From NCBI RefSeq assembly GCF_025685625.1, contig NZ_JAGSYI010000003.1, forward strand, positions 558,001-622,000: DNA of 64,000 bases, read 5' to 3'. Positions 39,644 through 63,368 of the stretch are shown here, piece after piece. The translations under genes were made by a program, and so were the position numbers. A model generated the notes under the pieces. The model was not told where the DNA came from. It did no database searches and saw only the letters and a list, made by a program, of their open reading frames with translations. Source of the DNA: Acidicapsa acidisoli (lineage in GTDB: Bacteria > Acidobacteriota > Terriglobia > Terriglobales > Acidobacteriaceae). Each line of letters starts with the position of its first letter. Position 1 is the first letter of the stretch.

Positions 39644-41923
39644 TCAGGCTTCCCTGCGCAGATCGAGCCCGGCCTCTCCAGATCGAATGCGAAGCAACTC
39701 GCTCCCGTACCGCACATGATGCAGCTCTCCGCGGAATCCCCGCCGCACCGCGGCGTCCATCAACGCAGCTTTGCCTCCTGGCTTGGCGGCATAGCCAAAG
39801 AGCGTGCCGATAATGGTTTCCGCAAAAGCGCCGCCGCCGGAACACTCGCGCATACAGCCTTCCCTTTGAGCAATCCGTACCGGCGCATCATATTGGCTCC
39901 GTATCGGACCGTAAAATTCATGCGCCTGCGCGTAGACGCCTTCGTAGATCGCGGCCTGTGTTCGTCGCAGAAACGTAATCGCGTCCTCCCAGTAACCCAA
40001 TGCGCACATCGCATCCACCGTTACCGCCGGCCATGCATCGTATGCACCCATCGATCCATGATCGGGACGGTCAGAACTAGCTGCGGCTACGTCGAGCATT
40101 GACTGCGCACGCATCCACTTCTCGGCCAATAGCTCCCGCTTCACGAAGCCAACCATCTCCCCTCGCACATTGACTGGAAGATCGCCGGCCATGAAGCGGC
40201 CCACCGTCGCAAAGTCATAGCAGTGGCGCATCTCTACTCGGCTTCCGTCCCGGTGAAGGCTCGCCCAAACACCCGTTCCAGGAACGTACAAACTCATCAC
40301 CGCTTTTACCATTGCATCCGCTTCGGCGTGCATTTGGCGGGCCTCGTCGGAATTGCCAACCGCCTGCAGGATGCCGGCAAACTCGCGCATCATCCACACA
40401 TCTGCGGCATTGAACGACGGCACCTTGTGAATATAGGTCGGCACGCACTCCAGCAGGTTAGGGGCCTCGCCGTAATCGGCCAGAGTGTCTGTGGGCGCGC
40501 GCAGCAGCTTCTTCCAGTTCGTCGCCAGCACGCGTAGCCGTTCGAGCACCGTCTGATCGGCGATCTTCTCCCGCAGGAAATCCATATCCTGCGTAACGCA
40601 GAGATAGGACCACGCCAGCCGGAAGATCGATAGATCATTTGCCGCGTATCCGCGCAGGTCCCACCCCGCCGGCACCCGCAGTTTCTCCGGCGAAGGGGGC
40701 CGCTGATCTGTGAAGATGATTACCGCATTCGCATGGGGATCCTGCTCCAGGAACAACTTGAGCTGCTCCTTCATCTGCTTCGGCTCCAGCATGGCAAAGA
40801 GCGTCGAGAACAGCGATGTATCCCAATAAAACACGGTGCCCTTGGCCCGCTCGCCGCTGGTGATAAAGGTGCGATTGCTCCAGAGATTGGTGCGCAACAA
40901 CACAAGCAGCGTCAGCACGCTGCGATAGTAGATTTCGTGAATTGCGCCGTCGTCGGTCATCAAGACGGGTGCATTGCCGGAGAAGAACCCGTTGCCGGGC
41001 GTGAAGGCGGCGCTCCATCGCTCCTCCCAAACCCTCTTCGCGCGTTCCCACTGCGCCTCAAACCAGGCAACAGAGGTCGCTTGATCCGCTTCGGCGCTTT
41101 GCCTGCCGTTCACGTCGGCTGCACTCATCAAAAAGCGAATCTCACGGCTCTCTCCGGGCTGCAGGCGCATTGTCCATTGCGCCTCCGGCTCGACCGCTTT
41201 CGCCTCGGACCCATCCAGAAAACGGTAGATTGCGGTCATCTTCCGCTTCGCATTCCGCGCGCTGGCTGAGTCATGGCTTACAACGCGCAAACGAACACCT
41301 CCTCCTGCGAAATGATCGACGACCTCTTCCAACAGAGCCACCGCTTGTATCTCAAAGCCGGCAGCCGTATGGTGCAGCTCGCCGTTAGCGGCCACACCGA
41401 TATGAAAGCTCTTCTCCGCCGATCCAGTATTGGTGAGCCTGAGTCGCCAAAGAACGATCGTGTCCTCCATCACCAGCCGGTTGGTAGAAAGTACCTCCAG
41501 ATCGCCGGCTTTGACTCGCCGCTCCGCCTGATACGCACACCAGCGGCAGCTCGAACTTTCGTACTGCCTTCCGTCGATCAGCAGGCGGCAGAGCGGCAAT
41601 GCGTTGTAGATGTACCAGCGCGGACCGGAGTCCTGATAGAGCTGGCCGCCAGGGAGAAAATTCACACCCACCAGGTCGGGTGCGCAGGCGGCCATCTCAT
41701 GAAAATTATGCAGGGAGGGCATATGAGCCAACTGGCTGCAATCCAGCCACCCGGTCGCCAGTTCGTCGAGCGTGGGAACCCGACCGGCCTCCTGCTCGGC
41801 GCCAAGCTCAGCTCCACAGGCGAGTCCTCCTTTCGAGGCGATGCCGACCGAGAGCGCCGCGAGAGTTGAGCCCAAGAAGCTGCGCCGGCTGATGCTCCCC
41901 GGCGTAAATGGATCGTTCGTCAT
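39644..41923 (-). CDS. Tat-exported six-hairpin-type glycosidase, family uncertain
   Basis: The 759-residue protein begins with a clear Tat signal (SISRRSFLGSTLAALSVG). An N-terminal beta-sandwich is followed by an (alpha/alpha) barrel with KGTVFYWDTSLFSTLFAMLEP and VDAMCALGYWEDAI segments. This arrangement recalls clan GH-G enzymes (GH37/GH63) and MGH1-like proteins, but no family can be fixed by eye. GAGGGGAAAG directly precedes the ATG. It is divergent from the seven-heme cytochrome gene across a palindrome-rich region. Confidence 0.65.
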   Translation of the reverse strand: MTNDPFTPGSISRRSFLGSTLAALSVGIASKGGLACGAELGAEQEAGRVPTLDELATGWLDCSQLAHMPSLHNFHEMAACAPDLVGVNFLPGGQLYQDSGPRWYIYNALPLCRLLIDGRQYESSSCRWCAYQAERRVKAGDLEVLSTNRLVMEDTIVLWRLRLTNTGSAEKSFHIGVAANGELHHTAAGFEIQAVALLEEVVDHFAGGGVRLRVVSHDSASARNAKRKMTAIYRFLDGSEAKAVEPEAQWTMRLQPGESREIRFLMSAADVNGRQSAEADQATSVAWFEAQWERAKRVWEERWSAAFTPGNGFFSGNAPVLMTDDGAIHEIYYRSVLTLLVLLRTNLWSNRTFITSGERAKGTVFYWDTSLFSTLFAMLEPKQMKEQLKLFLEQDPHANAVIIFTDQRPPSPEKLRVPAGWDLRGYAANDLSIFRLAWSYLCVTQDMDFLREKIADQTVLERLRVLATNWKKLLRAPTDTLADYGEAPNLLECVPTYIHKVPSFNAADVWMMREFAGILQAVGNSDEARQMHAEADAMVKAVMSLYVPGTGVWASLHRDGSRVEMRHCYDFATVGRFMAGDLPVNVRGEMVGFVKRELLAEKWMRAQSMLDVAAASSDRPDHGSMGAYDAWPAVTVDAMCALGYWEDAITFLRRTQAAIYEGVYAQAHEFYGPIRSQYDAPVRIAQREGCMRECSGGGAFAETIIGTLFGYAAKPGGKAALMDAAVRRGFRGELHHVRYGSELLRIRSGEAGLDLRREA

Positions 41924-42176
41924 CTTTCCCCTCAGAGTAGCCTTTCATCGTTGGTTCAACTTGCTGTTACTGATAACCCGCGTTGGTATTTCGTTCAACT
42001 CCAAAATCCGCAGCTGTCGTAATGCCTGGGATAAGGAGAAAAGCTCCCTCTCCAAACAGCTCTACTTCGAGAGAGTTGAACCGTCCATTGCCAAGCGCTT
42101 GAAATAGAGATCTCTTTATCAAACAAGGCTCTCCCCATTTCCGCGTAATCCTAGCCGTACGCCTTGTGATATGTCA

Positions 42177-42223
42177 ATCATAATATATGATCTATTAATC
42201 TAATAACGATCATGTATTATGAT
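42177..42223. promoter_or_regulatory. Twin ATCAT-N5-ATGAT operators, 32 bp apart
   Basis: ATCATAATATATGAT (42177-42191) and ATCATGTATTATGAT (42209-42223) share perfect half-sites and sit 32 bp centre to centre, about three helical turns. This suits cooperative binding by a dimeric regulator on one DNA face. The regulator is unknown. Confidence 0.55.
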
Positions 42224-42290
42224 TTGTACCGCCTCGCAGCTTGAGCAGGACCTCGGCTACTAGAAGGTGAAGGGCCGACAAGATGTGAGT

Positions 42291-42463: not shown

Positions 42464-44278
42464 TTGCGACAACACCGCTCTCAACAATACGAGTTGTCCG
42501 GTCATCGTCCCGCGCGCTGGGTTCTAACGCTCACAGTCCTTGCATTCACAGCATTTGGCCAGGCCGGGAGTGGGTTCCAGCTCGCAGCGTCGTCAACGAC
42601 TGCGAGCGACACGGTTCGAACCACAACGGTGAACGATGGATATGTCGGATCGCAGGCCTGTGGTGACTGTCACGTTGCGATATACAGGGAGTTCACTCAA
42701 ACAAGGATGGGCCGCTCCATATCTAGCGTCTCGCCTGCTCTCCTGCAAAAACTCCACCTGCCAGCCGTGTATTCCAATCAGCGACTTGACCGGCACTTCG
42801 ACGTGACCGTCCGGGACGGGAAATTGTACGAAAGTGAATTTGCGCTGGATGGAAGCGGCACGGAGATCTTCCGCGAGGAGCATCAGCTCGAATGGATCGT
42901 CGGCTCTGGAGCAAATGGAATCGGCGCCATCGTCCGACGGGGCGATTATCTCTTTGAGGCGCCACTCACCTTATACACCAGTACCAAGAGGTGGGAGATG
43001 TCGCCAGGGTATGAATCGACGGATGTCGGATTTAGCCGGCCCATTCTTACAGCATGCCTCAACTGTCACAGTGGCCGCTCGAATCCGATCCCTAGTAGCG
43101 ACGGGCGCTACGAAAACAACGTGTTCTCGGAGATGCCGATAGGTTGCGAAAATTGCCATGGTCCTGGAGCGGCCCACATAGATGCCGCGACGAGCGGCGC
43201 CATGGGCAAAGGGCGAAGCTTCGCGATTGTGAATCCTGCCCGCCTGACTCCAGACCTCGCGAACAATATCTGTATGAGATGCCACGAGATTGGGGATGAA
43301 CGAATTCTCAAGCCCGGCAAAGAATACAAGGACATTCGGCCCGGAGAGCCTCTCGACAATACACTGTCGATTTTCATGACGCCTCCCACACGCAAGGCGC
43401 CGCCGGACAAGGATCATCTGCAGCATTACTATGCCATGACTTTGAGTAAGTGCTATCGCGCCAGCGGCGGCCGTCTGAGTTGCATAACCTGTCATGATCC
43501 TCACGTGGAACCTGCGAACGAAGAGGTGCCGATTTTTTTCAACAAGAGATGCATGAGCTGCCACACAGACCAAAACTGTAAGCTGCCAAGTGAGGCGCGC
43601 CGGCAAAGTAGTCCGCCCGATAATTGCATCGGCTGCCATATGCCGAAGCGCGAAATAGGCTTCATCGCACATGCCAGCCTTACAAATCACCGCATTACCG
43701 CCCAAGCCAATGAGCCCTTTCCGGACTCCGCGTTTTCACAGACCACGGCGGCCCTACCCGATCTTATCCATCTCAATCCTGCGCCGGGAAAGCAGGACGT
43801 CGCTCCTCCGCTCCTTACGCTACTGCAAGTCTATGGAGAACTCGCCGCACAAAAACCAGAGTATGTCCCGCCTTACTATAGGGTTCTCGATCAGCTTCAA
43901 CAGAGGGAACCAAACAACGCCTTGGCGCAGGCGGCATTAGGGCGCCGATGCCTGCAAAGCGGAAACATGCAAGAAGCTATCGAGCACCTGAAGCAATCTT
44001 TGGCGATCGGAAAGCCTCAGTCAGCGGTCTACTCCGACCTCTCTGAGGCTCTGGATAAAACAGGTCAGCGAGAGCAAGGTCTCGCCATACTGCAGAAAGC
44101 GATTCAAGAGGACCCGTTCAATCCGCTGCTGCAAAGATCACTGGTCTTTCGCCTCATCGATCTCAAGCAATACACGAATGCACGAGCAGCTATGAGGCGT
44201 TACTCTGAAATCTTTCCACAAGACTTCTTTATGCGGCAGAAATTCGCCGTCGCCATGGAGGGCGCTCCTGAGCAATAA
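42464..44278 (+). CDS. Seven-heme c-type cytochrome with TPR tail
   Basis: The 604-residue exported protein has a signal peptide at about 17-42. Seven CxxCH heme motifs follow (CGDCH, CLNCH, CENCH, CMRCH, CITCH, CMSCH, CIGCH) over residues ~67-390. The C-terminal part (about 450-600) is made of TPR helices (NALAQAALGRRCLQSGNMQEA and following). Multiheme cytochromes of this kind move electrons in the periplasm, and the TPR part suggests a protein partner. The start is TTG with an AGGACGGGA motif just upstream. No ATG gives a complete signal peptide. Confidence 0.87.
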   Translation: MRQHRSQQYELSGHRPARWVLTLTVLAFTAFGQAGSGFQLAASSTTASDTVRTTTVNDGYVGSQACGDCHVAIYREFTQTRMGRSISSVSPALLQKLHLPAVYSNQRLDRHFDVTVRDGKLYESEFALDGSGTEIFREEHQLEWIVGSGANGIGAIVRRGDYLFEAPLTLYTSTKRWEMSPGYESTDVGFSRPILTACLNCHSGRSNPIPSSDGRYENNVFSEMPIGCENCHGPGAAHIDAATSGAMGKGRSFAIVNPARLTPDLANNICMRCHEIGDERILKPGKEYKDIRPGEPLDNTLSIFMTPPTRKAPPDKDHLQHYYAMTLSKCYRASGGRLSCITCHDPHVEPANEEVPIFFNKRCMSCHTDQNCKLPSEARRQSSPPDNCIGCHMPKREIGFIAHASLTNHRITAQANEPFPDSAFSQTTAALPDLIHLNPAPGKQDVAPPLLTLLQVYGELAAQKPEYVPPYYRVLDQLQQREPNNALAQAALGRRCLQSGNMQEAIEHLKQSLAIGKPQSAVYSDLSEALDKTGQREQGLAILQKAIQEDPFNPLLQRSLVFRLIDLKQYTNARAAMRRYSEIFPQDFFMRQKFAVAMEGAPEQ

Positions 44279-45800: not shown

Positions 45801-48800
45801 CTAAAAGATGAACTTCCCGGCTAGCTGGAGCTGTCGCGCTGTACTTGCGGTGCTGTTGATCGTACCAAAGGCTGATCCGCTATTGAGGTCGCTATTGGGC
45901 TGACCCAGGTCTACGTGGTTGAACAGATTGAATGCCTCGGCTCGAAACTCGAATCTTCGCCCTTCTCCCAATGGGAACTGGCGAAAGAGCGACATATCCA
46001 GATTCCAGAAGGCAGGGCCCGAGAGAGAATTGCGTCCCGCAGTGCCGAAGGTGTAAAGCGCCGGGGCGGCATAATTTGCGGTATTGAACCACTCCGCTGC
46101 GGACCTATGCGAAATGCCGGAGCTTTCCACCTTATTCAAATGTTCAGTAGTCAAAAACCCCTGTCCGATATTTGCGATATCGCTACTGATGGCGGGAGTA
46201 AAAGCAATGCCCGAATGTGTTTGGAACAGATCGTTAAGCTGCCAGTTCCCCAGGATGTAATCAAGCACGCCGTTCTTAGTGGAAAGCATTTTTCCCTTCC
46301 CAATAGGAACCTCGTAAAGCGTGTTCACAGTCAAAATGTGCCTTAAATCAAGTCCTGATACAGATCGATCATAAAGAGCCGGGTGATAGGGGTCCTGCGG
46401 AGCGCCGCCTTCAACACCGTAATATCCATCGCCTCCGACATCAATGGACTTTGACCAGGTGTAGGCCAATCCGTACGAGAAGCCGCTGGTGTACCTCCTC
46501 TCCAGCGAGACCTGTAGCCCGTTGTAATTGCCGCTGCCTACGCTGCGATCGTAGTACGTCGGGGCCATGTAGGGAAACAGAGCGCGTGACTGAGGGTCGC
46601 CAGGTCCTGGCGTAAGCGCAGTGTTATACATGCCGCCAACATCAAGCCGGTGCGACGACGAGCCAACATAATTCACTGTCAGTGTGGTCGAAGAGCTAAG
46701 AAGTTGCTGCACGCCAAAGTTCCATTGTTCCGAATAGGGATTCTTTAGATTCGGATCGTACATAAAGCCGACCTGAGCGAATGGAGTAGGCGCTGGAAAG
46801 AAGCTATTGCCTGCGCTTGCGAATGGATCCTGTGATGTAACTGTCGGTGTTGCAGAGCTTGTTTTCGGCACGTTCAAATTAACAGCTTGTTGCTGACCTG
46901 TGTCAGGCCAAAGTCCGGCGATATTCTGTGCATCTTGCAATACACCCGCCCAATTGTCATACACGATGCCGAAAGCTCCGCGAACGACTGTGCGATCCGT
47001 GAACTTGTAAGCAAAACCGAGGTGGGGGCCGACATTCGTGTCGGTGTTATGAAGTATTTTTTCGTTTGGAGACACGACGACGTTCGCAGGGAGCGTGCCA
47101 TCTCCGGGAATGCACGGCGCAGCGCCGCGGACACTGCAGAGAGGAGGAAGCTTCTGAATGATATAGGTGCCGTTTTCGAGATCATCATCACCTGTCTCTG
47201 GCCCGCCGTTTTGACCGATTTGCTTGCTGGTCCCATAGGGTGGATTAAATGTGAGATCGTATCGAAGCCCCAGATTAACCGTCAATTTCGAGTTAACTCT
47301 CCAGCTGTCCTGCACAAATTCGCTCATAACACCGCCAGGACGCGTTTCCGAGTTCTCGTTGCGCCGCTGAGCTGAGTCTGGAGCGTTGATGAGAAAGGAG
47401 GCGACCGGATCGCCGGTATTGACGGTGTCAAGAGGATTTGTGTCGGCGGTTTCTTGCGCAGCGTATGTGAGGTTTGAAAGGGCGATCGGAGCCAAAAATT
47501 TATTGCTGATGAACCCTCCGCCTATGTGAAACTCGTGGTTTCTCCATATCTTCGTCAAAGCGCCACTGTATTGGTTGGAGTTCGGAACGTCCGGGTGGTT
47601 CGATATGTTCTCGGTTGCGCTGGAATATCCATTGATCGCAAGTTGTGGAAGAAGGCTTCTCGAATTTCCTATAGCGGTGTAACCGCCGGCGAACGCCTGC
47701 GCGAACCCAACCTGACTAATGATCCCCGCCGATCCTTTTGTGAAGAAAGCTGAGGCATTGGCTCCGGCAAGCGTTCGGCCGAATTCAGCCTGAAGAATGA
47801 GACTGGGATTGAAGACATGTACGTAGCTGCCGCCATAGTTCCTATTCGGATTGGTGTTAACGTTTGGTATTCCTGGGAGGCCACCGGAACTACTTTCTAC
47901 ACTGGTGTCATAACTATAGCGAAACCACGCCGAGTCATTCCCGCCAACTTTTTGGTCAATCCGGGCAGTCCATTGGTTGATGGTCTGGGTTTCGGGAGTT
48001 GTGTCAAGCACATTGTCTCCGTTTGCATCAAATGCTGGCCCGGCCGCCGGGAAAACGAAGTTCGCGTAAGCTTGCATGGCGGGGCTGATGTCACCTGGAG
48101 CATTACCTACAGGAATCTGGTTCCCCTGATATGGCTGACGGATGTACTCGCCGGGATTGGCTGGATCCGGGATGGTGGTATACGGGTTGTATATCTGTGT
48201 CGGCCAACTGCTCTCATCTCCAGCGAGTTGGGCGACGGTCGGAACTTTTCGAGGAGCATTACTGGTCTGCGAGAAGCGGAATCCCTGATATGCCCCAAAG
48301 AAGAAGGTCTTGTTCTTGCCGTTGTACAGTTTCGGGAGCCAAACCGGACCTCCTACGGCACCGCCGAATTCGTTCTCTTTATAAGGCGTCCTGGGCGTAT
48401 CTGGCGGCAGGAAGTAGGCCTGAGCATCGAAGATATCATTGCGGTCATACTCCCACGCTGAACCGTGGAGACTGTTTGTGCCGGACTTAGTGACTACATT
48501 TATGACCCCGCCGGTTACCGACCCGTATTCCGCACTATCTGTGTGAGACACAACCTTGAATTCCTGAATTTCATCAATGATCGGCGGCACCGCATACACA
48601 CTGTGGAAGGCGCCGAAGTTGCTCAGGCCATCTGTGAAAAAGTAATCAGATCGGTTGCCCTGCCCATTAACGGAGGGAATTGTGGATGCCTGATTAAGTG
48701 GCTCCGGTGTTGCATATTGGCCTCCGCCGGGACCGCCCTGCCCGTTGTTTACCGGAGATATACCCGGACTCAGGATCAGAAGCTGAGTAAAGTCACGCCC

Positions 48801-49280
48801 GTTAAGCGGAAGATCGTTTACCTGTTGAGTCCCAATGACGGTACCCAGATTCGCACTTGACGTCTCCAGTTGCGGAGTAGCGCCCTGAACCGTAACGACG
48901 GTACTTTGCGAACCAACGGTCAGAGCAAAGTCAATCGTCGCGGCCTGTCCGACGGTAAGTGTGAACTCGGGAACCCGCTGCTCCGCGAAGTTCGGAGCTG
49001 ACGCCTGAACCGTATATCGCCCGGGAGTGATAGACAGGAAGAGATAGGCGCCCGCACCATTGGATGTGGTTGTGTTCTCGACGTCTGTGGCCACATTCCT
49101 TAGCACGATTTGAGCGCTCGGAACCACAGCGCCGCTGGGATCTCGGACAGCTCCGCTTAGCGAGGCCGTCGATAGCTGTGCCAACCCTGTGCCGGATAGC
49201 AGCAGGATGCCACTCAGTAAACACGCCTGCCACAGGGAAAATACTCTACAGGTCTTCCACCACTGAACTGAAAACTCCAT
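45801..49280 (-). CDS. Oar-type TonB-dependent receptor with carboxypeptidase-regulatory-like domain
   Basis: This is an outer-membrane transporter of 1159 residues. It has a signal peptide ending LLLSGTGLAQ, a CarboxypepD_reg-like domain (LSGAVRDPSGAVVPSAQI to about residue 125), a plug with LPLNGRDFTQLLILSPG and GGVINVVTKSGTNSLHG, and a long barrel ending LQLAGKFIF. Receptors of this type are abundant in acidobacteria and are thought to import glycan fragments, siderophores or peptides. The neighbours here suggest mannosides. GAGGAGG precedes the ATG at 49280. A promoter lies at 49430-49459. Confidence 0.93.
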   Translation of the reverse strand: MEFSVQWWKTCRVFSLWQACLLSGILLLSGTGLAQLSTASLSGAVRDPSGAVVPSAQIVLRNVATDVENTTTSNGAGAYLFLSITPGRYTVQASAPNFAEQRVPEFTLTVGQAATIDFALTVGSQSTVVTVQGATPQLETSSANLGTVIGTQQVNDLPLNGRDFTQLLILSPGISPVNNGQGGPGGGQYATPEPLNQASTIPSVNGQGNRSDYFFTDGLSNFGAFHSVYAVPPIIDEIQEFKVVSHTDSAEYGSVTGGVINVVTKSGTNSLHGSAWEYDRNDIFDAQAYFLPPDTPRTPYKENEFGGAVGGPVWLPKLYNGKNKTFFFGAYQGFRFSQTSNAPRKVPTVAQLAGDESSWPTQIYNPYTTIPDPANPGEYIRQPYQGNQIPVGNAPGDISPAMQAYANFVFPAAGPAFDANGDNVLDTTPETQTINQWTARIDQKVGGNDSAWFRYSYDTSVESSSGGLPGIPNVNTNPNRNYGGSYVHVFNPSLILQAEFGRTLAGANASAFFTKGSAGIISQVGFAQAFAGGYTAIGNSRSLLPQLAINGYSSATENISNHPDVPNSNQYSGALTKIWRNHEFHIGGGFISNKFLAPIALSNLTYAAQETADTNPLDTVNTGDPVASFLINAPDSAQRRNENSETRPGGVMSEFVQDSWRVNSKLTVNLGLRYDLTFNPPYGTSKQIGQNGGPETGDDDLENGTYIIQKLPPLCSVRGAAPCIPGDGTLPANVVVSPNEKILHNTDTNVGPHLGFAYKFTDRTVVRGAFGIVYDNWAGVLQDAQNIAGLWPDTGQQQAVNLNVPKTSSATPTVTSQDPFASAGNSFFPAPTPFAQVGFMYDPNLKNPYSEQWNFGVQQLLSSSTTLTVNYVGSSSHRLDVGGMYNTALTPGPGDPQSRALFPYMAPTYYDRSVGSGNYNGLQVSLERRYTSGFSYGLAYTWSKSIDVGGDGYYGVEGGAPQDPYHPALYDRSVSGLDLRHILTVNTLYEVPIGKGKMLSTKNGVLDYILGNWQLNDLFQTHSGIAFTPAISSDIANIGQGFLTTEHLNKVESSGISHRSAAEWFNTANYAAPALYTFGTAGRNSLSGPAFWNLDMSLFRQFPLGEGRRFEFRAEAFNLFNHVDLGQPNSDLNSGSAFGTINSTASTARQLQLAGKFIF

Positions 49281-49429
49281 CACATCCTCCTCAAATTGTC
49301 TTGCGGGCATACGAGATCGGTGTTTCCCAGTCGATGTACTTGTCGGGGTAGGCGTGATTGGTTGCCTCCAGCCATCTGGTTACGGCCTGATTGCGAGGTC
49401 ATAGGAACACCGATTTCTTGTTGTCGGTC

Positions 49430-49459
49430 ACAATAAGCGAGCGAAATCTGTGTTGTCAA
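49430..49459 (-). promoter_or_regulatory. Promoter of the TonB receptor gene
   Basis: On the minus strand TTGACA (49459-49454), an 18-bp spacer and TATTGT (49435-49430). The spacer holds ATTTCGCTCGC at the same register as in the histidine-kinase promoter at 58473-58502. Confidence 0.6.
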
Positions 49460-50198: not shown

Positions 50199-51965
50199 AT
50201 GGAGTTCTGTGAGCTGATGCGACGAGAGACGAATTACGATAGATTCCCCACATTTAGGGTAAGCGGGTGTGAATCGGAATGTTGGGAAGGTTGGCCCAGA
50301 ATCCTGGAACGGCTGAAGACATTCGGAGTGTCAGAGAAGTGCACGATTTCCTTCGAATGTTATCCGGGCGTATATGAGAGAGCACTGATCAGCGCTCTGG
50401 TGGAAAGCCTGCGCCCCTCGGGCCTGATCGTCACGTCGGACCTGTTGAAGAGTCCGTCCGAAATCGAGCAGATGGTATCGGATGTGCTGGGCGACGATCC
50501 TGTGTTTGGTCAAATGAACCCTCTTGAAATTGCGGATTTTTTTGATAGTGCGAAGCTCGCAAACGGGCGCGAAATGGCCAAAAACTGGAAGCATGGGCTC
50601 TTGGTCATTGTCGGCACGGGGGCGTCTCTAGTATCCGGAGAACCGAATCTGCTCGTATATGCAGATATGGCTCGTTGGGAGATCCAGCAACGTCAACGAC
50701 GGAATGAGGTCGGGAATCTGGGTACCGACAATCTCCAGGAAAGTCCGGGGCAGAAATACAAGCGGGCGTTTTTCGTCGATTGGCGCGCCGCCGACCATCT
50801 TAAGAAATCACTGTTGCAGAAGATCGATTTCTGGCTTGACACTAACGGAGATATTCCGAAACTCGTGACCGGCCGCGCTATGCGGGATGGACTACAACAG
50901 ATTTCCCGTCGCCCTTTTCGGGTAGTTCCCTATTTCGATCCAGGGCCGTGGGGTGGCCATTGGATGGAGAGGGTTTGTGGCCTCCCCACGGGGATGCCGA
51001 ATTATGCATGGTGTTTCGACGGCGTACCCGAGGAAAATAGTTTGCTGCTTTCTTTTGGAGGGACATGCGTCGAGATTCCAGCCATGAACCTCACCCTTCT
51101 TCATCCGCGCGAGTTACTGGGCGACGCGGTGTTATCCCGATTCGGAGCCGAGTTCCCGATTCGTTTCGATTTGCTCGACACGATGGGTGGTGGAAACCTT
51201 TCGCTACAGGTTCATCCAAGAACTCAATTCATCCGTGAGCACTTCGGCATGCAATACACGCAGGACGAGAGCTACTATTTGCTCGACGCCGGCGAGGATG
51301 GCGACGTATACCTCGGTCTTAGGAATCATATTGACCAAGAAGCCATGATTGGGGAGTTGAAAACGGCTCTAGGCGCCGATGTGTCGTTCAGGGCTGAGAC
51401 GTACGTAAACCGCTTCCCTGCCAGGAAGCACGACCATTTCCTGATTCCGGCGGGCACCATCCATTGCTCGGGCAAAAACTGCATGGTCCTTGAGATAAGC
51501 GCAACTCCGTATATTTTCACATTCAAGTTGTGGGATTGGGACCGGCTCGGTCTGGACGGCTTGCCTAGACCGATTCATCTCGAGCACGGCTTGGCAAACA
51601 TAGCTTGGAACCGCGACACGGATTGGGTTGAGAAAAACCTGATCAATCGGATTGATCCATTGGGCCAGGGCCACGGGTGGCGCGAGGAGCGCACAGGGCT
51701 CCACGAATTGGAGTTCATTGAAACGCGCAGGCATTGGTTTACGAGTTCGACGCCTCACGATACACTTCAGACGGTCAATGTTCTCAACCTCGTTGAAGGA
51801 GAGGAGGCTATCGTCGAAAGCCCGACGGAAGCCTTCGATCCGTTTGTCGTTCACTATGCTGAAACTTTCATTGTCCCGGCATCTGTGGGCCGATATTCAA
51901 TCTCACCTGCAGGACGATCCTTGGGAAAGAGCTGTGGAACGATAAAGGCGTTTGTCCGTTCCTAG
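50199..51965 (+). CDS. Class I mannose-6-phosphate isomerase with N-terminal extension
   Basis: The 588-residue protein is about twice the length of simple bacterial enzymes of this class. The C-terminal half carries the cupin metal-site signatures NLSLQVHPRTQ (Gln, His), DESYYLLDAG (Glu) and IPAGTIHCSG (His). The isomerase converts mannose 6-phosphate to fructose 6-phosphate. The N-terminal ~220 residues include FFVDWRAADHLKKSLLQKID and RPFRVVPYFDPGPWGG. I see no P-loop there, and its role is unknown. Long versions of this enzyme occur in mannan-utilisation loci of other phyla, by recollection. The ribosome-binding site is weak. Confidence 0.85.
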   Translation: MEFCELMRRETNYDRFPTFRVSGCESECWEGWPRILERLKTFGVSEKCTISFECYPGVYERALISALVESLRPSGLIVTSDLLKSPSEIEQMVSDVLGDDPVFGQMNPLEIADFFDSAKLANGREMAKNWKHGLLVIVGTGASLVSGEPNLLVYADMARWEIQQRQRRNEVGNLGTDNLQESPGQKYKRAFFVDWRAADHLKKSLLQKIDFWLDTNGDIPKLVTGRAMRDGLQQISRRPFRVVPYFDPGPWGGHWMERVCGLPTGMPNYAWCFDGVPEENSLLLSFGGTCVEIPAMNLTLLHPRELLGDAVLSRFGAEFPIRFDLLDTMGGGNLSLQVHPRTQFIREHFGMQYTQDESYYLLDAGEDGDVYLGLRNHIDQEAMIGELKTALGADVSFRAETYVNRFPARKHDHFLIPAGTIHCSGKNCMVLEISATPYIFTFKLWDWDRLGLDGLPRPIHLEHGLANIAWNRDTDWVEKNLINRIDPLGQGHGWREERTGLHELEFIETRRHWFTSSTPHDTLQTVNVLNLVEGEEAIVESPTEAFDPFVVHYAETFIVPASVGRYSISPAGRSLGKSCGTIKAFVRS

Positions 51966-55195: not shown

Positions 55196-58090
55196 CTATG
55201 TGTTTAGTGCTTCGATGCGCAAGGTGACCAACTCCCAAGCGAGTACGTCCACATGCGTACCAAGCAGTTCAAGCGGTTGCTCGCCGAGGTTGCTACGCCA
55301 AACCTTGATTGGCCTACCATCTGTCCACGTTAAGTTGGCTCTACGGTTTTCTCCCGCGGCGCCGAACAGTCGTACAATCCACGCGGAGCCATCTCTACTT
55401 GGCTTGCACTCCTGCAGGAGTACATCTTCCTGATCTATCCGGAGCTTCAGGGACGTTCGAGATCGCTGCCCTTGGGCCGAAGCAATAAGGGGCTGTGACA
55501 TGCTAATCGCAAATCGGCTGGCAGCTGCAGGCTCGTAACCGCTGTGCGGGCGAAGCGCATACCGAAACTCGATGAGTCCATCCTGATACGCGCGGTAATT
55601 CGTTCCCCAATGATTGTTCATGACCCAGGAATAGAACTTTGACGTGGGCTCAATATGCTTACGCCAGATCTCAGGATGGGTTTGCGAGCCTAGCATGGTG
55701 GCCGAAATATAGCCGATTTCAACCAGAGGCGCATCGAGTGTCGCACAGGTGACGCCGTACTCTGCATTTGCTACATCAATCCACCGGCCCACAAGTAACC
55801 AGTTCTTGCAAGATCCCGGAAGTTGATCAATCTCAGGCCGCATTACTGCAAGAGGAACATCGATGTGAATTTGACCGTTCTCAATAGCAAACGGAAAGGC
55901 AAATTGCATGCTTTCTTTGGACCCATGTTGAGCAAATTCTACGGCAGGTCCATCTTTGCCAGGGTGCGGATTCAGGGGTGCGCGTTTCTTATTTATGGTG
56001 TTGGATAGTTCAATCCAATCCATGTTAGCCTTCAATCGCACGCGGCGAACAAGGTCCAAACATCCCGGCGCGGAAGACTCGATACGGATCGTAGCAACAA
56101 GGGGGCCGGGGTCCTCGATTGCGATGCGCACAGGCCCGCTCGTGCTCACTCTTGAAACGTCACTACCTTCAAGGAACAGATACTTGTTTACCGCCTCGTT
56201 TGAACTGGTGTCCACGAGGTTGTGCGTGTTCCTGCTCGACGTCAGCTCGACGACGTTGCCGTTCTTGCTGTCGACTTTCGCGCGCACAACACCGTTATCC
56301 AAGACTCCATCCAGCACCGTAACGCGTATTGACGGAGCATGCGACGCTCCTGCTGAAAGATGAAAACTCGCACTCCCCAGCGCCGGAACATTCTCTGCGA
56401 GGAAAGCCAATTCTTCGGTTGAAAGACGCTGCGATGGAACAGATATGCCGTGTTCGTTCTTCACATGATCTTTGCCCCGAGACCCCTCTTTCGAGATCAG
56501 GACCACTTCTGTCCTGGGCCAGGAAGAGGTGTTATGTACATCTACGGTTGAGTTGTCGCTCCCGCTTGAGTATGCGTCGAGCACCCCGTCCAGGAGCCTC
56601 TTTGATTCATTCTCGGCGTCAACCGCGAATTGGCGTTTAACTTGCCATTGTTGTGCGACAAAGGGATTCTCTGAATCCGAAACACTATTCCACGCTCCCC
56701 AGGTGTGCTCCGAATACAACAAGACATTTCTCCAGGCTGCGTCAAAATCGGTGTTCTTATATGCCTGCGGCGCGAGCATCGTAGAGAGTGTTGCTGCCTG
56801 AACCAAGCGCTCGGCTGCTCCGCGGTTCATGCGTGTCTCCAAAGCCGATGATCCCGCTCCATCCTCCCAATAGGGAGTCAAGTCGCCCTTTAATTCCGGC
56901 AGTTGGTGCCCATGCTGTTTCTCGAATGCCGCGAACGCATCGCTTGTCGTCGAAATAGAGAAGCGCGGCCATTCGTATTCTTCATTCCATTGCTTCACGA
57001 ACTCGCAAATGTCCGGATCAGGAGGCGCGTTGTCGCCTTGGCCCGACCACCGAATATAAGAGATCTGATAGGGGAAACCGATCTCATCCAGTCTCGCTTG
57101 ATACTTGTTGACCCACTTTGGGTTTAGCTTCATGATGTGCGACATCGCATACCCGGTCCACGGAACCCAGAAAAGTACTCTTTCATTGCCTGAAGGAGAG
57201 ACCCACCAGAATGGTTTATCCTGCCACTCAACCATAAAGCTCCCAATGCGGTCGAAGTAATTGGGAGCAGCCGAGAAGTAGCGTATACCTGCTTGGACCA
57301 TCGCTGAGACCGTCCCCCAGGTATACCCTGGCACATCGCTAATCATGGCTGAGTCAACGCGGACTCCGCATTGATTGCCTAACTCAATTGAGTAACGAAG
57401 CAATTGTAGAAGCTCTTCAGGCCGGCAAAGGCCAGTAAGCTCGTTCGCATACATCCCGTTGATCGCAACCCAGCCCTTCTTCACCGCGCTGATGAACTCC
57501 TCGCGCTCTGGCGCGGCCTTAGTTCTTATGAACAGATCTGCTCCCCACAGAACTTCGAGGTTCCAAATGAACCGGGCTCCTGGCGGGTAGTCGGCCGTGT
57601 TTCGCGCTAGCTCGATTCCCTTGGAGATATTTGCCATTTGTTTTGCTTCAACATTCTTCTGAAGATCGGTGTATCCAAGGTCATGGTGAGAGTGAGGCAA
57701 GATGAAGATCTGGAGTTTGCGTACTGGTTCTATGCGAACTTGGGCCGAATCCGACTTGCCCGCGATCTCATAGTCGATAAGCAGTTGCCTGGCTGTTTCA
57801 ACCGGATCAACAAAGACCGTAAACGTATGTGTCCCTGAAGTCAGAACGCGACGGTCGACTTCTTGGCGGTCGGCGCGTACGACCAATGTTGCGTCCGTTC
57901 CGGAGTGCGCAATCGTCAATTGGATCGGTTGGACTGGTCTTCCACCCTTATTCGCGATTCCGCGAATTGGCAGGGCGAAGCCCGGCTTTTCCATAAAGGT
58001 CTGATCTTGGCCAAGAGCCAAGCCCCGAGGTCGAGCACAAATGATCCCGGCTACACCCGCGATGCCTTTTATGACTTTACGTCTTTCCAT
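55196..58090 (-). CDS. GH38-type alpha-mannosidase, exported
   Basis: The 964-residue protein has a twin-arginine-like N-terminus (MERRKVIKGIAGVAGI). A short beta domain is followed by the GH38 catalytic domain with ILPHSHHDLGYTD (metal ligands His/Asp at about 133-137), the nucleophile Asp at about 252 in SAMISDVPGYTWG, and FWVSPSGNERVLFW-like strands. A C-terminal GH38-type beta region follows. GH38 enzymes are zinc-dependent retaining alpha-mannosidases. The frame extends to 58162, but the Tat-like signal defines 58090. Divergent from the histidine kinase gene. Confidence 0.85.
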   Translation of the reverse strand: MERRKVIKGIAGVAGIICARPRGLALGQDQTFMEKPGFALPIRGIANKGGRPVQPIQLTIAHSGTDATLVVRADRQEVDRRVLTSGTHTFTVFVDPVETARQLLIDYEIAGKSDSAQVRIEPVRKLQIFILPHSHHDLGYTDLQKNVEAKQMANISKGIELARNTADYPPGARFIWNLEVLWGADLFIRTKAAPEREEFISAVKKGWVAINGMYANELTGLCRPEELLQLLRYSIELGNQCGVRVDSAMISDVPGYTWGTVSAMVQAGIRYFSAAPNYFDRIGSFMVEWQDKPFWWVSPSGNERVLFWVPWTGYAMSHIMKLNPKWVNKYQARLDEIGFPYQISYIRWSGQGDNAPPDPDICEFVKQWNEEYEWPRFSISTTSDAFAAFEKQHGHQLPELKGDLTPYWEDGAGSSALETRMNRGAAERLVQAATLSTMLAPQAYKNTDFDAAWRNVLLYSEHTWGAWNSVSDSENPFVAQQWQVKRQFAVDAENESKRLLDGVLDAYSSGSDNSTVDVHNTSSWPRTEVVLISKEGSRGKDHVKNEHGISVPSQRLSTEELAFLAENVPALGSASFHLSAGASHAPSIRVTVLDGVLDNGVVRAKVDSKNGNVVELTSSRNTHNLVDTSSNEAVNKYLFLEGSDVSRVSTSGPVRIAIEDPGPLVATIRIESSAPGCLDLVRRVRLKANMDWIELSNTINKKRAPLNPHPGKDGPAVEFAQHGSKESMQFAFPFAIENGQIHIDVPLAVMRPEIDQLPGSCKNWLLVGRWIDVANAEYGVTCATLDAPLVEIGYISATMLGSQTHPEIWRKHIEPTSKFYSWVMNNHWGTNYRAYQDGLIEFRYALRPHSGYEPAAASRFAISMSQPLIASAQGQRSRTSLKLRIDQEDVLLQECKPSRDGSAWIVRLFGAAGENRRANLTWTDGRPIKVWRSNLGEQPLELLGTHVDVLAWELVTLRIEALNT

Positions 58091-58548
58091 ATTTGGCGAG
58101 AAATTCCCTTTCTGGCCAGCGTGGACGGACCTGAATGAATGACACGCACGCCAGTGATACATCCGCTCAACATCTCGAATTAGATAGGAGCGGAACCGGA
58201 GGACCTCAAATTTCGTCGGTTCGGCTGAAATGCGGTGCCGCGTGAGAACACCAGTTGAGGTAGTGATCGAATGTCAGCAAAACACACCCATATGACGAGC
58301 AATGGTCGATTTCACCTGCATTAACACCAATCGATTCACGGATATGCGCTCAGCTTTGATCGCCGCCGAAGTGTAATTCCCCCTTCCTGAATTCCCAACA
58401 ATTGTGACACATACTGAGATTAAAACATCATTTATCGCGATTTTATTTACTTGATACAATCATTTTTAATGGTTGACAAGCGCCATTTCGCTCGCCTACG
58501 ATCGCCGGTAATCAAGAAAGCACAGTCTCGGCGACGGGGTATGGAGGC
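58091..58548. other. Control region between GH38 and histidine kinase genes
   Basis: The region holds two DeoR-type sites (AGTGATCGAA at 58262-58271 and AATGGTCGAT at 58301-58310) and the kinase promoter at 58473-58502. In-frame TonB-receptor plug codons run from about 58519 into the kinase gene. AT-rich between 58400 and 58475. Confidence 0.55.
58473..58502 (+). promoter_or_regulatory. Histidine kinase promoter, copy of the receptor promoter
   Basis: TTGACA (58473-58478), an 18-bp spacer and TACGAT (58497-58502). The spacer contains ATTTCGCTCGC (58485-58495). This is 11 of 11 bases identical and in the same register as the TonB receptor promoter. Confidence 0.6.
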
Positions 58549-59766
58549 GTGTTGGGCGACGTGGTCAATGTGGTAAGTAAGTCAGGGACGAACACGGGGA
58601 CGAATTCGTCGGCCGACTTTCCATTCCACGAGTCGGCCAAATCAGAGCGCCGGGCGCATGAACTCTTCCGGAAAATCGCCGACGGTGTTCCCATCTGCAT
58701 CTGCATTATGGCTTCCGACGGAGGCATGGTTTACGCGAATAAAGTCGCGTCGACTGTTTTGGGAAAGCCGACCGAACAGATTCTTGGCAACCAGTGGATG
58801 CAGCACATTCATCCTGAACAATATGAAGAGGCGCACGAAAACTGGATGTGTTGTGTTGCAACCAGGACTCCCCTCGATACGAGATGGATGATGTTGCAAT
58901 CTGATGGGCTATATCGCTGGCAGCATATTCTTGCAGTTCCATCATTCAACGAGGAGGGCCAGTTGGCGAACTGGTGCTTGGTGATTGTTGATATCGATGA
59001 GCAGGTACGCACCGAAGTTCATCTCCGAGAAATGCGCGCGAAACTTAACAATGCCTCACGAATCGCGACGGTTGTTGCGCTCTCTGCTTCTATTGCACAC
59101 GAACTTAATCGACCATTGACGAATGTCGTCACGAGCGCTCAGGACGGAAAGCGATGGTTGGCTGCTGACCCGTCGAAGACTGGGGAAGCCGCCGCGTCAC
59201 TTGAGGAAATGCTTCGCGACGGACGGGCCGTCAATGAAAATATGCAACATATATGTGCTTTGTTCAAACAGGAGACATTCGACAAGAAGGAAGCAAGCGT
59301 TTCTGAAATGATCAAGGAAGCCATACGAATGATCCAGCAAGTCCCACGTTGGCGAGATATTTCGATTGAGTACAGCTTCGAGAGAGATCTCGCGAAGATT
59401 TTTGTCGATCCGATCCAGATTCAGGAAGTGTTGATCAATCTCTTCTCGAATGCACTTGAAGCAATGGAGATTACCTCCGCCAGCCCGCGACTCCAAATCT
59501 GCGTTGCGATCGTTAGCGACAAAGAGGTGCTTGTACAGGTAATTGTCAACGGACCGGGCGTCGACGATCTCGAGAATATCTTCAAGACCCTTGTAACAAC
59601 CGAGGAAAAGGGTATAGGCGTCGGTTTGGCTATCTCTCGCTCAATGGTCGAAACGCAGGAAGGACAACTTTGGGCGGAGAACAATCCCAAAGGCGGAACA
59701 CGGTTCAATTTGCGGTTCCCTATATCCCGCATATCAACAGCCGCTCCATCATCTCGGTGGAGATAG
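58549..59766 (+). CDS. PAS-domain histidine kinase with TonB-receptor-derived N-terminus
   Basis: The frame encodes 405 residues without membrane helices, so a cytosolic kinase. Residues 1-19 (LGDVVNVVSKSGTNTGTNSS) match a TonB-receptor plug. A PAS domain spans about 33-155. HisKA has SIAHELNRPLTNVV, the N-box is INLFSNALEAM, and a glycine box GIGVGLAIS follows. The conserved Asp of the G1 box is Val (residue 333, VNGPG instead of DxGPG), so ATP binding is doubtful. The start is GTG (or TTG one codon on) behind GGAGGC, and is uncertain. No response regulator gene is adjacent. Confidence 0.8.
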   Translation: MLGDVVNVVSKSGTNTGTNSSADFPFHESAKSERRAHELFRKIADGVPICICIMASDGGMVYANKVASTVLGKPTEQILGNQWMQHIHPEQYEEAHENWMCCVATRTPLDTRWMMLQSDGLYRWQHILAVPSFNEEGQLANWCLVIVDIDEQVRTEVHLREMRAKLNNASRIATVVALSASIAHELNRPLTNVVTSAQDGKRWLAADPSKTGEAAASLEEMLRDGRAVNENMQHICALFKQETFDKKEASVSEMIKEAIRMIQQVPRWRDISIEYSFERDLAKIFVDPIQIQEVLINLFSNALEAMEITSASPRLQICVAIVSDKEVLVQVIVNGPGVDDLENIFKTLVTTEEKGIGVGLAISRSMVETQEGQLWAENNPKGGTRFNLRFPISRISTAAPSSRWR

Positions 59767-59900
59767 GAGCCCCGAAGAGATCGTCTCCGGTTGGGATGAG
59801 TTACGACAACCTATTTCGGATCACGCCTTTAGTCCGGCGTTGAGTTCAACGACATTCTCCCCTAAGGCAGGTCCGTCTGAATCAAATCTGTGGATTGACT

Positions 59901-60692
59901 CTAGACCAGGGTGACATCTATACCGAGTTTTTTGAATGGCGCAATGGCTGAAGCGGATGCCCCCGTATCAGTAATTAACCTATCTATTTCCTTTGTTGGA
60001 CAGAGGAGATACTTGCTGACAGAACCGAGTTTGCTGTGATCGGCCACAACGACCTTCACTTTGGCATTGTGCACCAGTTTGCGCAGGACTTCGGCTTCGG
60101 AAGGATTCGTGCAGGTCAAGCCCTTCTTCGCATCGATGCCGTCGACGCCGATGAACATGATATCGGAGAAGAGCATCTCAGCACCGGCGGTAGCGAGCGG
60201 ACCCACGAGAGTAAACCAACTTCCGCGGAGGTGCCCTCCCGTCACAATCACCTCGATATCCTTCCTGCTACTCAATTCCATTGCCACATTTACGGTATTC
60301 GTAATGATCGAGATGCCGGTCAGCACTCTTAGGCATCGCACCACTTCGGTGGTCGTGGTACCTCCGCTCAACGCAACGGTTTGTCCCGTGCTGACGAGGC
60401 CAGATGCTGCCTGCGCAATCCGACGCTTTTCTTCGGCGAAGCTATTTATCTTGTCTTGAAAGGAATTGTCATGCCGAAACGGTTCGTAGAACAACGGCCC
60501 GATAGGTACCGCTCCGCCGCGTGTTCGCCTTAGAAGCGACCGGCTTTCAAGATCCTCGAGGTCGCGGCGGATCGTTGCTACCGATGCGCCAAGCGTGTTG
60601 CAAAGTTCGTCGACTTCGACTCCACCCGTCTCCTGCAGGCGGCGAAGAATGTATTCGTGACGTGCGACGAGATTATCAGTCTTGGGAGCCAT
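59901..60692 (-). CDS. DeoR/GlpR-family transcriptional repressor
   Basis: The 263-residue protein has an N-terminal winged helix (HEYILRRLQETGGVEVDELCNTLGASVATIRRDLEDLESRSLLRRTRGGAV). Its C-terminal sensor domain of the DeoRC type has VALSGGTTTTEVVRCL and FIGVDGIDAKKGLTCTNPSEAEVLRKL. Such regulators usually respond to a phosphorylated sugar. Two identical TATGATCGAA sites lie just upstream, and related sites precede the isomerase and GH38 genes. It is therefore the likely repressor of this mannoside locus. Confidence 0.93.
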   Translation of the reverse strand: MAPKTDNLVARHEYILRRLQETGGVEVDELCNTLGASVATIRRDLEDLESRSLLRRTRGGAVPIGPLFYEPFRHDNSFQDKINSFAEEKRRIAQAASGLVSTGQTVALSGGTTTTEVVRCLRVLTGISIITNTVNVAMELSSRKDIEVIVTGGHLRGSWFTLVGPLATAGAEMLFSDIMFIGVDGIDAKKGLTCTNPSEAEVLRKLVHNAKVKVVVADHSKLGSVSKYLLCPTKEIDRLITDTGASASAIAPFKKLGIDVTLV

Positions 60693-60746
60693 ATGGTTAA
60701 GCGTAACAAAGCCGACTCTTCGGCATCTTTTTCACTATATCTCATT

Positions 60747-60777
60747 TATGATCGAACAATCTTTATGTATGATCGAA
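60747..60777. promoter_or_regulatory. DeoR operator pair TATGATCGAA, 21 bp apart
   Basis: TATGATCGAA at 60747-60756 and 60768-60777 are exact copies two helical turns apart, between the divergent deoR-type and GH92 genes. On the minus strand the first lies just upstream of a -10-like TATAGT (60734-60739), so autorepression is likely. Confidence 0.65.
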
Positions 60778-60935
60778 ACGCCACATAGTACTCACAAGAA
60801 GAAAGGCAATGCTGCGGCACAGCGCGAAATGTCGTGAATCTCTCTGGACTTGTGTTCTAGTAGCGGCAACCGCTGTGGATTGATCGAAAGCTGCCTAGAC
60901 CGGCGCGCTTGTCGACTTTGGGAATCGAGGAACAG

Positions 60936-63368
60936 ATGAAGGGGGCTGATATTCGGGTGGGTAAGGTTTCACGTAGGTCCTTCGCAACAGGTTCAGCACT
61001 GTCACTCGCATCGATGTGGCTTCAGCCCAAGATGATTGCGAGTGAGTTGCGGCAGGCGGATCACCAGCCATGGCGTTTCATCAATCCGTTGATTGGAGCG
61101 AGCACCAACATAAAACTTGGCGAAGGAAAAACGTTCCCCGGGCCAGCAACACCGTTCGGCATGGTACAGCCTGGACCGGACACGATCACTGGAGGAGACC
61201 AGGGGCCTGGCTACTCGTATGAACATACAACAATTGAGGGCTTCAGCTTCCTACGCATGAGCGGGGTTGGCTGGTATGGAGACTTCGGCAACTTGCTCGT
61301 GATGCCGACGACTGGCCAGATGAAGCTTGATAGCGGACGAGTGGACCATCCGGGCGAGGGATGGAGATCGGCCTTTAGCCACTCGCGCGAGGTAGCAGAG
61401 GCGAACTACTATGCAGTCACCCTAGATGACTATGGTATCCGCGCAGAGGTGACGGCTGCTCCGAGATCCGGAATGCTGCGGTTTACTTTTCCTCGCACCG
61501 AAACAGCACGCATACAATTAGACCTTGCGCGGCGCATTGGTGGCACCTCGACTCGCCAATATGTGAAGGTCGCAGGTGAACGGGCGATTGAAGGCTGGAT
61601 GCGTTGTCCGGCGATCGGAGGCGGTTGGGGCAACGGTGAGGGGCAAGTTGGTTATACCGTACACTTCCATCTGGAATTCTCCGAGCCCCTCATCGAATAT
61701 GGCGTCTGGAAGATCAATGTTCCCGATGGGACCTTTCCTGTAGCAAAAGGACTGGTCACCGATTACTTCACCAGCGAGCCATATCGAGAGTTGGTCAAAC
61801 GTGCCGAAGTTCTCAATGGATGTAAGGAAATGGAAGCAAACCACATCGGATTCTTCGCGGAGTTTCCGCAGCACAATCCCGAAAAGCCCATCTTAGTAAA
61901 GGCAGGAATCAGCTTCGTCAGTGTGGAGGGAGCACGCCAGAACTTGGCCAGGGAGATTCGCGAATGGGATTTTGAGGAAGTACGCGATAGAGGGCGGGCC
62001 CTTTGGAACGATGCTCTGAATTCAATTCAGATTGAAGGCGCTTCTGACGTGGACCAGAGAATCTTTACGACTGCTCTTTACCATGTGATGATCGACCCGC
62101 GTGATATCTCTGATCTGAGTGGAGAGTATGTCGCTGCCGACAGTACAGTTCACAAGAGTGTCGGTTACACGCCAAGGACGATCTTTAGCGGTTGGGATGT
62201 CTTTCGAGGGGCATTTCCCCTTCTGACACTGACGAACGCGACCCTCATCAACGATGAGATTAATTCCCTCATTGCTTTGGCCGAAACGAGCGGCAAGGGC
62301 TATCTCGAACGATGGGAGATCATGAATGCATACAGTGGCTGTATGGACGGCGATCCCGCTACGTCCGTAATCCTCGATGCCTATACCAAAGGCATTCGTG
62401 GTTTTGATATCGAAAAAGCATATGCCTTTTGCCGACAAACCGCAGCCGGAGAAGATGGATCCACGAACCGCCTCCACAACAGCTTCTACATGAAGCACGG
62501 CTACGTTCCCGACCAAGTATCGTGGACTCTCGACAATTACTACTACGATTGGTGCGTCTCGAAGCTGGCAACGGCTCTCGGGAAAACAGAGGACGCCAAG
62601 GTGTTCGGTCAACGGTCAACACAGTTCAAATCCATCTATGATCCGCAGGTCGACAGTATGCGGGCGAAAGCTGCGAACGGTGACTGGATTCCATGGAAAG
62701 GAAAGACCGAATTCGGACAAGGGTGCACGGAGAGCAACCCTGGTCAGCAAACCTGGTTTGTTCCACACGATGTGCATGGGCTAATCGAACTCATGGGCGG
62801 CAAAGAAGTGTTCGCCAGGAAACTGGAAGACTTTTTTGAAAAGACGCCGGATTCCTTTGGGTGGAACTCCTATTACAACCATTCGAATGAACCGGTGCAC
62901 CACGTACCCTACCTATTCGTATATGCCGGAAAACCATGGCTTACCCAGAAGTGGGTACGGCGAATTCTCGCAAACGCCTATCACGATGACGTCAATGGCA
63001 TCTGCGGCAACGACGATGTGGGACAGATGTCGGCTTGGTACGTTCTGGGCGCACTCGGCTTTTACCCCGTATGCCCAGGCGATGGTATCTACGTCCTCAG
63101 TAGCCCACTCTTTCCAAAGGCTACCTTGAACCTTGACAAGCACTACTACAAAGGGGCGAAGTTTACGATCATAGCTCGTAACCATTCCTCCAAAAACAGT
63201 TATATCCAAAGTGCAAGATTGAATGGGAAGCCATTAAGCCGAGCGTGGATTCGCCATAGTGAAATTGCGGCTGGTGGGCAGCTTGAGTATGTGATGTCAT
63301 CTGAGCCCAACCTGAGTTGGGGTACTTCAGACCAAGACTTGCCGCCTCCATCATCCCACTCCGCATGA
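60936..63368 (+). CDS. GH92 alpha-mannosidase, Tat-exported
   Basis: The 810-residue protein has a Tat signal (VSRRSFATGSALSLASMWLQ). A beta-sandwich domain beginning INPLIGASTNIKLGEGKTFPG follows, then an (alpha/alpha)6 domain with NHSNEPVHHVPYLF (acid Glu) and GNDDVGQMSAWYVLGALGFYPV (catalytic base Asp). GH92 enzymes are calcium-dependent inverting exo-alpha-mannosidases acting on N-glycans and yeast mannan. GAGG before AACAG precedes the ATG at 60936, and a TTG at 60909 is also in frame. Divergent from the DeoR gene. Confidence 0.93.
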   Translation: MKGADIRVGKVSRRSFATGSALSLASMWLQPKMIASELRQADHQPWRFINPLIGASTNIKLGEGKTFPGPATPFGMVQPGPDTITGGDQGPGYSYEHTTIEGFSFLRMSGVGWYGDFGNLLVMPTTGQMKLDSGRVDHPGEGWRSAFSHSREVAEANYYAVTLDDYGIRAEVTAAPRSGMLRFTFPRTETARIQLDLARRIGGTSTRQYVKVAGERAIEGWMRCPAIGGGWGNGEGQVGYTVHFHLEFSEPLIEYGVWKINVPDGTFPVAKGLVTDYFTSEPYRELVKRAEVLNGCKEMEANHIGFFAEFPQHNPEKPILVKAGISFVSVEGARQNLAREIREWDFEEVRDRGRALWNDALNSIQIEGASDVDQRIFTTALYHVMIDPRDISDLSGEYVAADSTVHKSVGYTPRTIFSGWDVFRGAFPLLTLTNATLINDEINSLIALAETSGKGYLERWEIMNAYSGCMDGDPATSVILDAYTKGIRGFDIEKAYAFCRQTAAGEDGSTNRLHNSFYMKHGYVPDQVSWTLDNYYYDWCVSKLATALGKTEDAKVFGQRSTQFKSIYDPQVDSMRAKAANGDWIPWKGKTEFGQGCTESNPGQQTWFVPHDVHGLIELMGGKEVFARKLEDFFEKTPDSFGWNSYYNHSNEPVHHVPYLFVYAGKPWLTQKWVRRILANAYHDDVNGICGNDDVGQMSAWYVLGALGFYPVCPGDGIYVLSSPLFPKATLNLDKHYYKGAKFTIIARNHSSKNSYIQSARLNGKPLSRAWIRHSEIAAGGQLEYVMSSEPNLSWGTSDQDLPPPSSHSA

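Follow-up and report, generated by a model that had tools for sequence, protein, structure and literature searches.

In experimental evolution, promoters and gene fragments are known to become joined to signalling modules by deletion, so the kind of event that we consider here is not new (PMC4395868). In the wrinkly spreaders of Pseudomonas fluorescens, as described there, deletion places a signalling domain in frame behind an upstream gene, and the captured promoter can raise transcription. The gene analyzed here is like these fusions in that a signalling module follows, in frame, the promoter and 5′ part of another gene, but the wrinkly spreaders carry an active diguanylate cyclase and were selected in the laboratory (PMC4395868), whereas the present fusion arose in nature, has diverged, and has a kinase that is probably impaired.

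In its domains the gene resembles FixL-like and multi-PAS kinases (Edaphobacter, Caballeronia, Paraburkholderia and others), with which it shares a PAS-HisKA-HATPase core (E = 3.9e-41 to the FixL chimera 4gcz); unlike it, these relatives are mostly longer, show no stub near any of 91 loci scanned, and have Asp in the G1 box where Val stands here. At its 5′ end it resembles receptors of the Carboxypeptidase-regulatory/OMP_b-brl_4 type, which we take to be “Oar-like”, sharing with them the plug motif NVV[ST]KSGTN and with the DeoR-locus receptors a promoter and leader. A TonB-dependent receptor consists of a plug and a beta-barrel, whereas this is a kinase gene with 19 plug residues, in which we found no barrel. 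There is also a likeness to a repurposed histidine kinase of Caulobacter, presumably DivL. That kinase is employed in cell-fate control (PMC4211667), and the gene under study likewise encodes a kinase-like protein whose usual catalytic role may be gone; the likeness is one of resemblance alone.

Our window is the whole 64,000-nucleotide stretch analyzed (G000:C3:558001-622000, from a genome of 7.1 Mb in 18 contigs). The reading that we prefer, with a probability of roughly 65%, is that it contains a chimeric gene founded on what deletion left of a receptor copy, expressed with the DeoR locus, and probably impaired in kinase activity.

A receptor-plug stub at the start of the kinase frame

58549..59766, plus strand: open reading frame of the proposed chimeric sensor kinase, 405 aa from GTG 58549
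58537..58593, plus strand: TonB-receptor plug stub GYGGVLGDVVNVVSKSGTN, from matches to receptor plugs
58585..58604, plus strand: direct repeat GGGACGAA, two copies, at the border of plug and linker
58543..58547, plus strand: Shine-Dalgarno-like GGAGG, putative in function
58549..58572, plus strand: the complete set of in-frame ATG/GTG/TTG codons ahead of the PAS domain (GTG 58549, TTG 58552, GTG 58561, GTG 58570), all in the stub
45801..49310, minus strand: TonB-dependent receptor (Pfam OMP_b-brl_4, CarboxypepD_reg)

The first-pass annotation had claimed that the frame at the kinase start matches a receptor plug, and our analysis bears this out. Against four receptor cores GYGGVLGDVVNVVSKSGTN scores 67-75 (BLOSUM62), while the background does not exceed 33 (25-27 for the best other 19-mers of the window in six frames, besides the window's receptor, and 22-33 for the best of five shuffles per core). 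When a profile built from 85 of the genome's plugs serves as the query, only the window's receptor ranks ahead of the kinase frame (E = 0.0028 for the frame; the next at 0.19). The counterpart originally named, the plug of the window's receptor, is a real match (13/19 identical), but alignment with the genome's receptors, as the annotation had suggested, located a closer one on contig C5 (L039, EFGGVLGGVVNVVTKSGTN; 15/19); receptors of genomes G211, G155 and G333 reach 14/19, all of these identities being taken among 13 plug segments retrieved by a strict motif. At the DNA level, the best match elsewhere in the genome again falls in a receptor plug, with 80% identity over 40 bp (E = 0.011), which is modest alone. 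No such stub is present near the 91 loci with kinase homologs, where the best score is 38, on the other strand, against 97 for the stub itself. A search of 58163-60692 with the window's receptor as the only query gave no further remnant. The direct repeat GGGACGAA is possibly a junction scar, to judge from its position.

It is conceivable in principle that there was never a receptor copy here, and that a plain regulon promoter stands before a peptide that came to look like a plug by convergence. The stub has only 19 residues, its DNA match is modest, and in genome G298 a non-receptor gene has the same promoter; the distance between the plug scores and their background nevertheless makes this explanation highly improbable.

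The kinase frame is open from TGA 58474 to 59766. The next in-frame ATG/GTG/TTG codon after the stub, ATG 58708, lies inside the PAS domain, and codons of the rare types ATC/ATT, at 58675-58705, are found at the PAS start or within it. An ordinary ATG/GTG/TTG start before the PAS domain but outside the stub was judged unlikely, as none exists, and the kinase, if made, therefore probably initiates within the stub. The GGAGG at 58543-58547 could be the ribosome-binding site for TTG 58552. In another frame, an 11-codon ORF (MEACWATWSMW) runs from ATG 58541 to TAA 58574-58576 and overlaps GTG 58570; it is possibly a leader for translational coupling.

The locus and its counterparts in relatives

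55196..58162, minus strand: GH38 glycosidase, divergent from the kinase (Pfam)
59901..60692, minus strand: DeoR-family regulator, kept in relatives (Pfam; relatives)
60909..63368, plus strand: GH92 glycosidase (Pfam)

Genes for GH38, GH92, DeoR, a receptor, a carboxylesterase and a RhaT-like transporter are clustered in the window. Among 14 DeoR stretches of relatives, drawn from the best DeoR matches and searched at E 1e-15, the receptor is found in 12, the 50199-51965 ORF in 11, GH38 and RhaT in 9 each, the carboxylesterase in 4 and GH92 in 2, and the kinase in none of the 14. The 50199-51965 ORF (588 aa) is a kept frame that matches no Pfam family at E 1e-4 and by eye has the look of a sugar isomerase. 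In genome G298, a receptor is directly divergent from GH38, which is the place that the stub occupies in the window, and in G001 a receptor is divergent from GH38 at a distance of 2.7 kb; their identities with the receptor of the window are only 29% and 27%, respectively. No intact precursor of the chimera was found.

A promoter element that goes with the DeoR locus

58473..58502, plus strand: kinase promoter, with TTGACA (58473-58478), an 18-bp spacer containing ATTTCGCTCGC (58485-58495), and TACGAT (58497-58502)
49430..49459, minus strand: promoter of the TonB receptor in the window, which has the same element and reads TTGACAACACAGATTTCGCTCGCTTATTGT
58503..58532, plus strand: leader, in gapless alignment with the leader of the G211 receptor from the -35 on (40/60 over 58473-58532)

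We confirmed the earlier claim that the kinase and receptor promoters share TTGACA, an 18-bp spacer and 11 bases (ATTTCGCTCGC), with 21 of 30 positions identical overall. When the 7.1-Mb genome was searched for TTGACAN7TTTCGCTNGC with up to two mismatches, the only two exact sites were those at the kinase and the window's receptor; no site had one mismatch and 21 had two, while the reversed control gave 14. Across 398 family genomes, TTGACAN6ATTTCGCTCGCNTA (up to one mismatch) occurs at five sites in four genomes, and its reversed control at none. Two of the five are those in the window; one lies upstream of a receptor adjoining a 91%-identical DeoR (G211), one upstream of a GH38 gene adjoining an 87%-identical DeoR (G298), and the fifth, within an ORF in G015, was dismissed as chance. 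We reject a chance origin of the shared element, given the two exact genome sites and the five family sites against none in the control.

Only one of 86 receptor upstream regions fetched in the genome, that of the window's receptor, contains the element; the next best has four mismatches, as do the best 2 of 86 shuffles. These 86 receptor or receptor-like loci represent 90 of 98 matches, four being second pieces of the same gene, with the 8 weakest others left aside. The 98 genome matches are to the N-terminal part of the window's receptor and reduce to 94 places after second pieces are merged. The element being present in 1 of 86 receptor upstreams and before GH38 in G298, we reject it as a general TonB-receptor promoter and conclude that it goes with the DeoR locus rather than with receptors as such. 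The “receptor-like expression” attributed to the kinase is unsupported as stated for the same reason, and “expression with the alpha-mannosidase/DeoR locus” is the wording that a promoter not specific to receptors calls for.

Alignment of promoter plus leader with that of the kinase gave scores of 20 for the G211 receptor, 17 for the G155 receptor, 17 for the G298 GH38 gene and 13 for the window's receptor, where the maxima of 300 shuffles each were 8, 7, 7 and 10, respectively. The divergent G298 receptor gave no promoter or leader match to the kinase (score 5; shuffle maximum 8). Since the kinase promoter and leader fit the G298 GH38 gene and not the receptor divergent from it, it is chiefly the plug stub that speaks for the promoter having come from a receptor. 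The gene has a promoter and 5′ part in frame with another gene, as in a promoter-capture fusion, with a promoter that also fits a GH38 origin. Of the proposal that a receptor copy was deleted internally and joined to a kinase, what stands is a plug remnant in frame with the kinase, preceded by a promoter and leader that resemble those found at receptors of the locus; what falls away is a promoter of general TonB-receptor type.

The kinase core and its relatives

58663..59010, plus strand: PAS domain (Pfam PAS families, residues 39-154)
59098..59100, plus strand: phospho-acceptor His codon, in the H-box motif HELNRPL
59407..59724, plus strand: HATPase_c (Pfam PF02518, E = 2.7e-17, residues 287-392)
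59545..59547, plus strand: GTC (Val333) in place of the family G1-box Asp, which is present in 86 of 87 aligned sequences

The predicted protein has PAS, HisKA and HATPase_c in the order seen in FixL-like kinases, the HisKA match being weak (E = 9.8e-4, under Pfam's cut-off score), and corresponds to the PAS-HisKA-HATPase end of multi-PAS kinases, most of which are longer. Matches at E 1e-70 occur in 7 of 398 family genomes, including its own, and all but the gene itself are 40-46% identical; no close ortholog was found in these 398 genomes. Most of these matches lie in frames of 892-2143 aa, the short ones being a 437-aa frame (G210) and the 572-aa frame of a paralog in the kinase's own genome. 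A search of genome contigs with the single kinase protein kept no relative, and an alignment used as the query gave at least 79 kinase-related loci at 28-47% identity, the best named relative among the matches listed being Edaphobacter modestus (47%); the loci were chosen by two conserved kinase peptides, a choice that favours well-conserved kinases.

Homology to the longer kinases begins some 12-18 residues past the stub in most matches. One BLAST alignment, at locus L069, goes against this boundary by extending into the end of the stub frame (query 17-404), though the scored match at the same locus starts from 43. Besides the kinase, the family has short members in relatives, among them a 437-aa frame (L071), one of 527 aa (L130) and one of about 520 aa (L126, the Edaphobacter modestus relative), so N-terminal loss may recur in this kinase family. 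Response-regulator partners downstream of nine relatives, inspected by eye, gave no consistent picture.

The H-box His, the N-box Asn and the glycine-rich GxGxGL are kept. The G1-box Asp holds adenine, and in this residue the protein departs from FixL-like kinases: Val is unique to it (1 of 87 rows), and the solved FixL-type structure 4gcz aligns Asp. The 87 rows are the 91 homologs minus L195 and L203 (too short), with identical rows collapsed and the kinase included. In addition, 47 positions do not vary among 30 near relatives, and the kinase deviates at 12 of them, more than any other of the 31 sequences; another relative, L137, comes close behind (10/45), and the next has 7/42. With the G1-box Asp missing and these other conserved positions changed, the protein probably has little or no autokinase activity.

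These changes could also be those of a dead relic, a decaying by-product of deletion or rearrangement in which the promoter persists and a useless kinase is on its way to being lost. Beyond the missing Asp and the altered invariant positions, the terminal branch of the kinase is the fourth-longest of 87 (0.96, against a median of 0.11), and the lack of a close ortholog in the family agrees with such a fate. The frame nevertheless runs for 405 stop-free codons with a coding-like GC content by codon position (0.56/0.40/0.57), and it retains the H-box His, N-box Asn and GxGxGL, and we regard a relic as unlikely, though a serious contender. The first-pass version, in which a captured promoter confers receptor-like expression on an active sensor kinase, draws on the receptor stub and the common promoter, and on HATPase and PAS matches above Pfam's cut-offs. 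The element's distribution, with one receptor upstream among those fetched and a GH38 gene in G298, speaks against it, and the absence of the G1-box Asp makes an active kinase with new expression doubtful; we hold this version to be improbable.

Operator-like palindromes

58457..58475, plus strand: operator-like palindrome CAATCAT-TTTTA-ATGGTTG, overlapping the kinase -35 hexamer, one mismatch to CRATCAT-N5-ATGATYG
60757..60775, no strand: operator-like palindrome in the deoR/GH92 intergenic region (pattern match)
42175-42193 and 42207-42225, no strand: two operator-like palindromes between divergent genes (pattern match)

The palindrome CRATCAT-N5-ATGATYG is common to several upstream regions of locus genes, and its right half runs into TTGACA. 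It is found at the kinase promoter, in the deoR/GH92 intergenic region, and at some of the deoR and receptor promoters of relatives; the window receptor's own promoter has none within two mismatches at its -35. With up to one mismatch, the window contains four sites (42175, 42207, 58457 and 60757) and 20 Markov copies of it contain none. Genome-wide there are six sites, four of them in the kinase locus, against two for the reversed control, and six relatives together have 22 sites, of which 7 fall at their DeoR loci (G211 2/7, G155 2/6, G298 1/1, G135 1/3, G338 1/2, and 0/3 in G001, which is of the same genus); the pattern was read by eye from some of the promoters later counted, so this enrichment is partly circular, the 42-kb sites being outside those read.

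Because the palindrome precedes deoR itself, we infer that the DeoR protein binds it, and the kinase is probably in the DeoR regulon. The paired palindromes at 42175-42225 suggest that this regulon extends as far as there. The intergenic region that holds them is bounded by a 759-aa ORF (39644-41923, minus strand) and by the gene of a protein (42464-44278) that has matches to cytochrome c and TPR.

Proposed origin and role

In our preferred reading, a TonB-receptor copy of the alpha-mannosidase/DeoR locus, divergent from GH38, would have lost its interior and end and retained its promoter, its leader and about 19 plug codons. This remnant would have been joined in frame to the last PAS domain and histidine-kinase core of a longer multi-PAS kinase. 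Too small for a plug role, the stub would provide the ribosome-binding site and start codon, and the neighbouring DeoR-type regulator would probably switch kinase transcription with the locus, presumably by repression, through the palindrome covering the -35. The product, without the G1-box Asp and with other conserved positions changed, would probably have weak or no autokinase activity. The sequence itself shows the promoter element, the stub, the restriction on start codons, the clustering of the palindromes and the loss of Asp; the deletion history, binding and repression by DeoR, the use of a start in the stub and the impaired catalysis are deduced from these. As for its function, one speculative idea, to which we give long odds, is that a kinase core probably without self-phosphorylation, made from a former plug codon solely while the mannosidase locus is active, serves as a phosphatase tuned to the locus, a decoy or the partner of another kinase.

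If the preferred reading is true, the gene is a natural case in which deletion supplied a signalling module with a start codon as well as a regulated promoter, and it illustrates how such a gene evolves afterwards. The locus also offers a testable candidate operator for the DeoR-type regulator of a GH38/GH92 locus, a subject on which our literature search found no paper for Acidobacteria. Adjoining the palindrome in the deoR/GH92 intergenic region, we also observe direct repeats of ATGATCGAA at 60740-60775.
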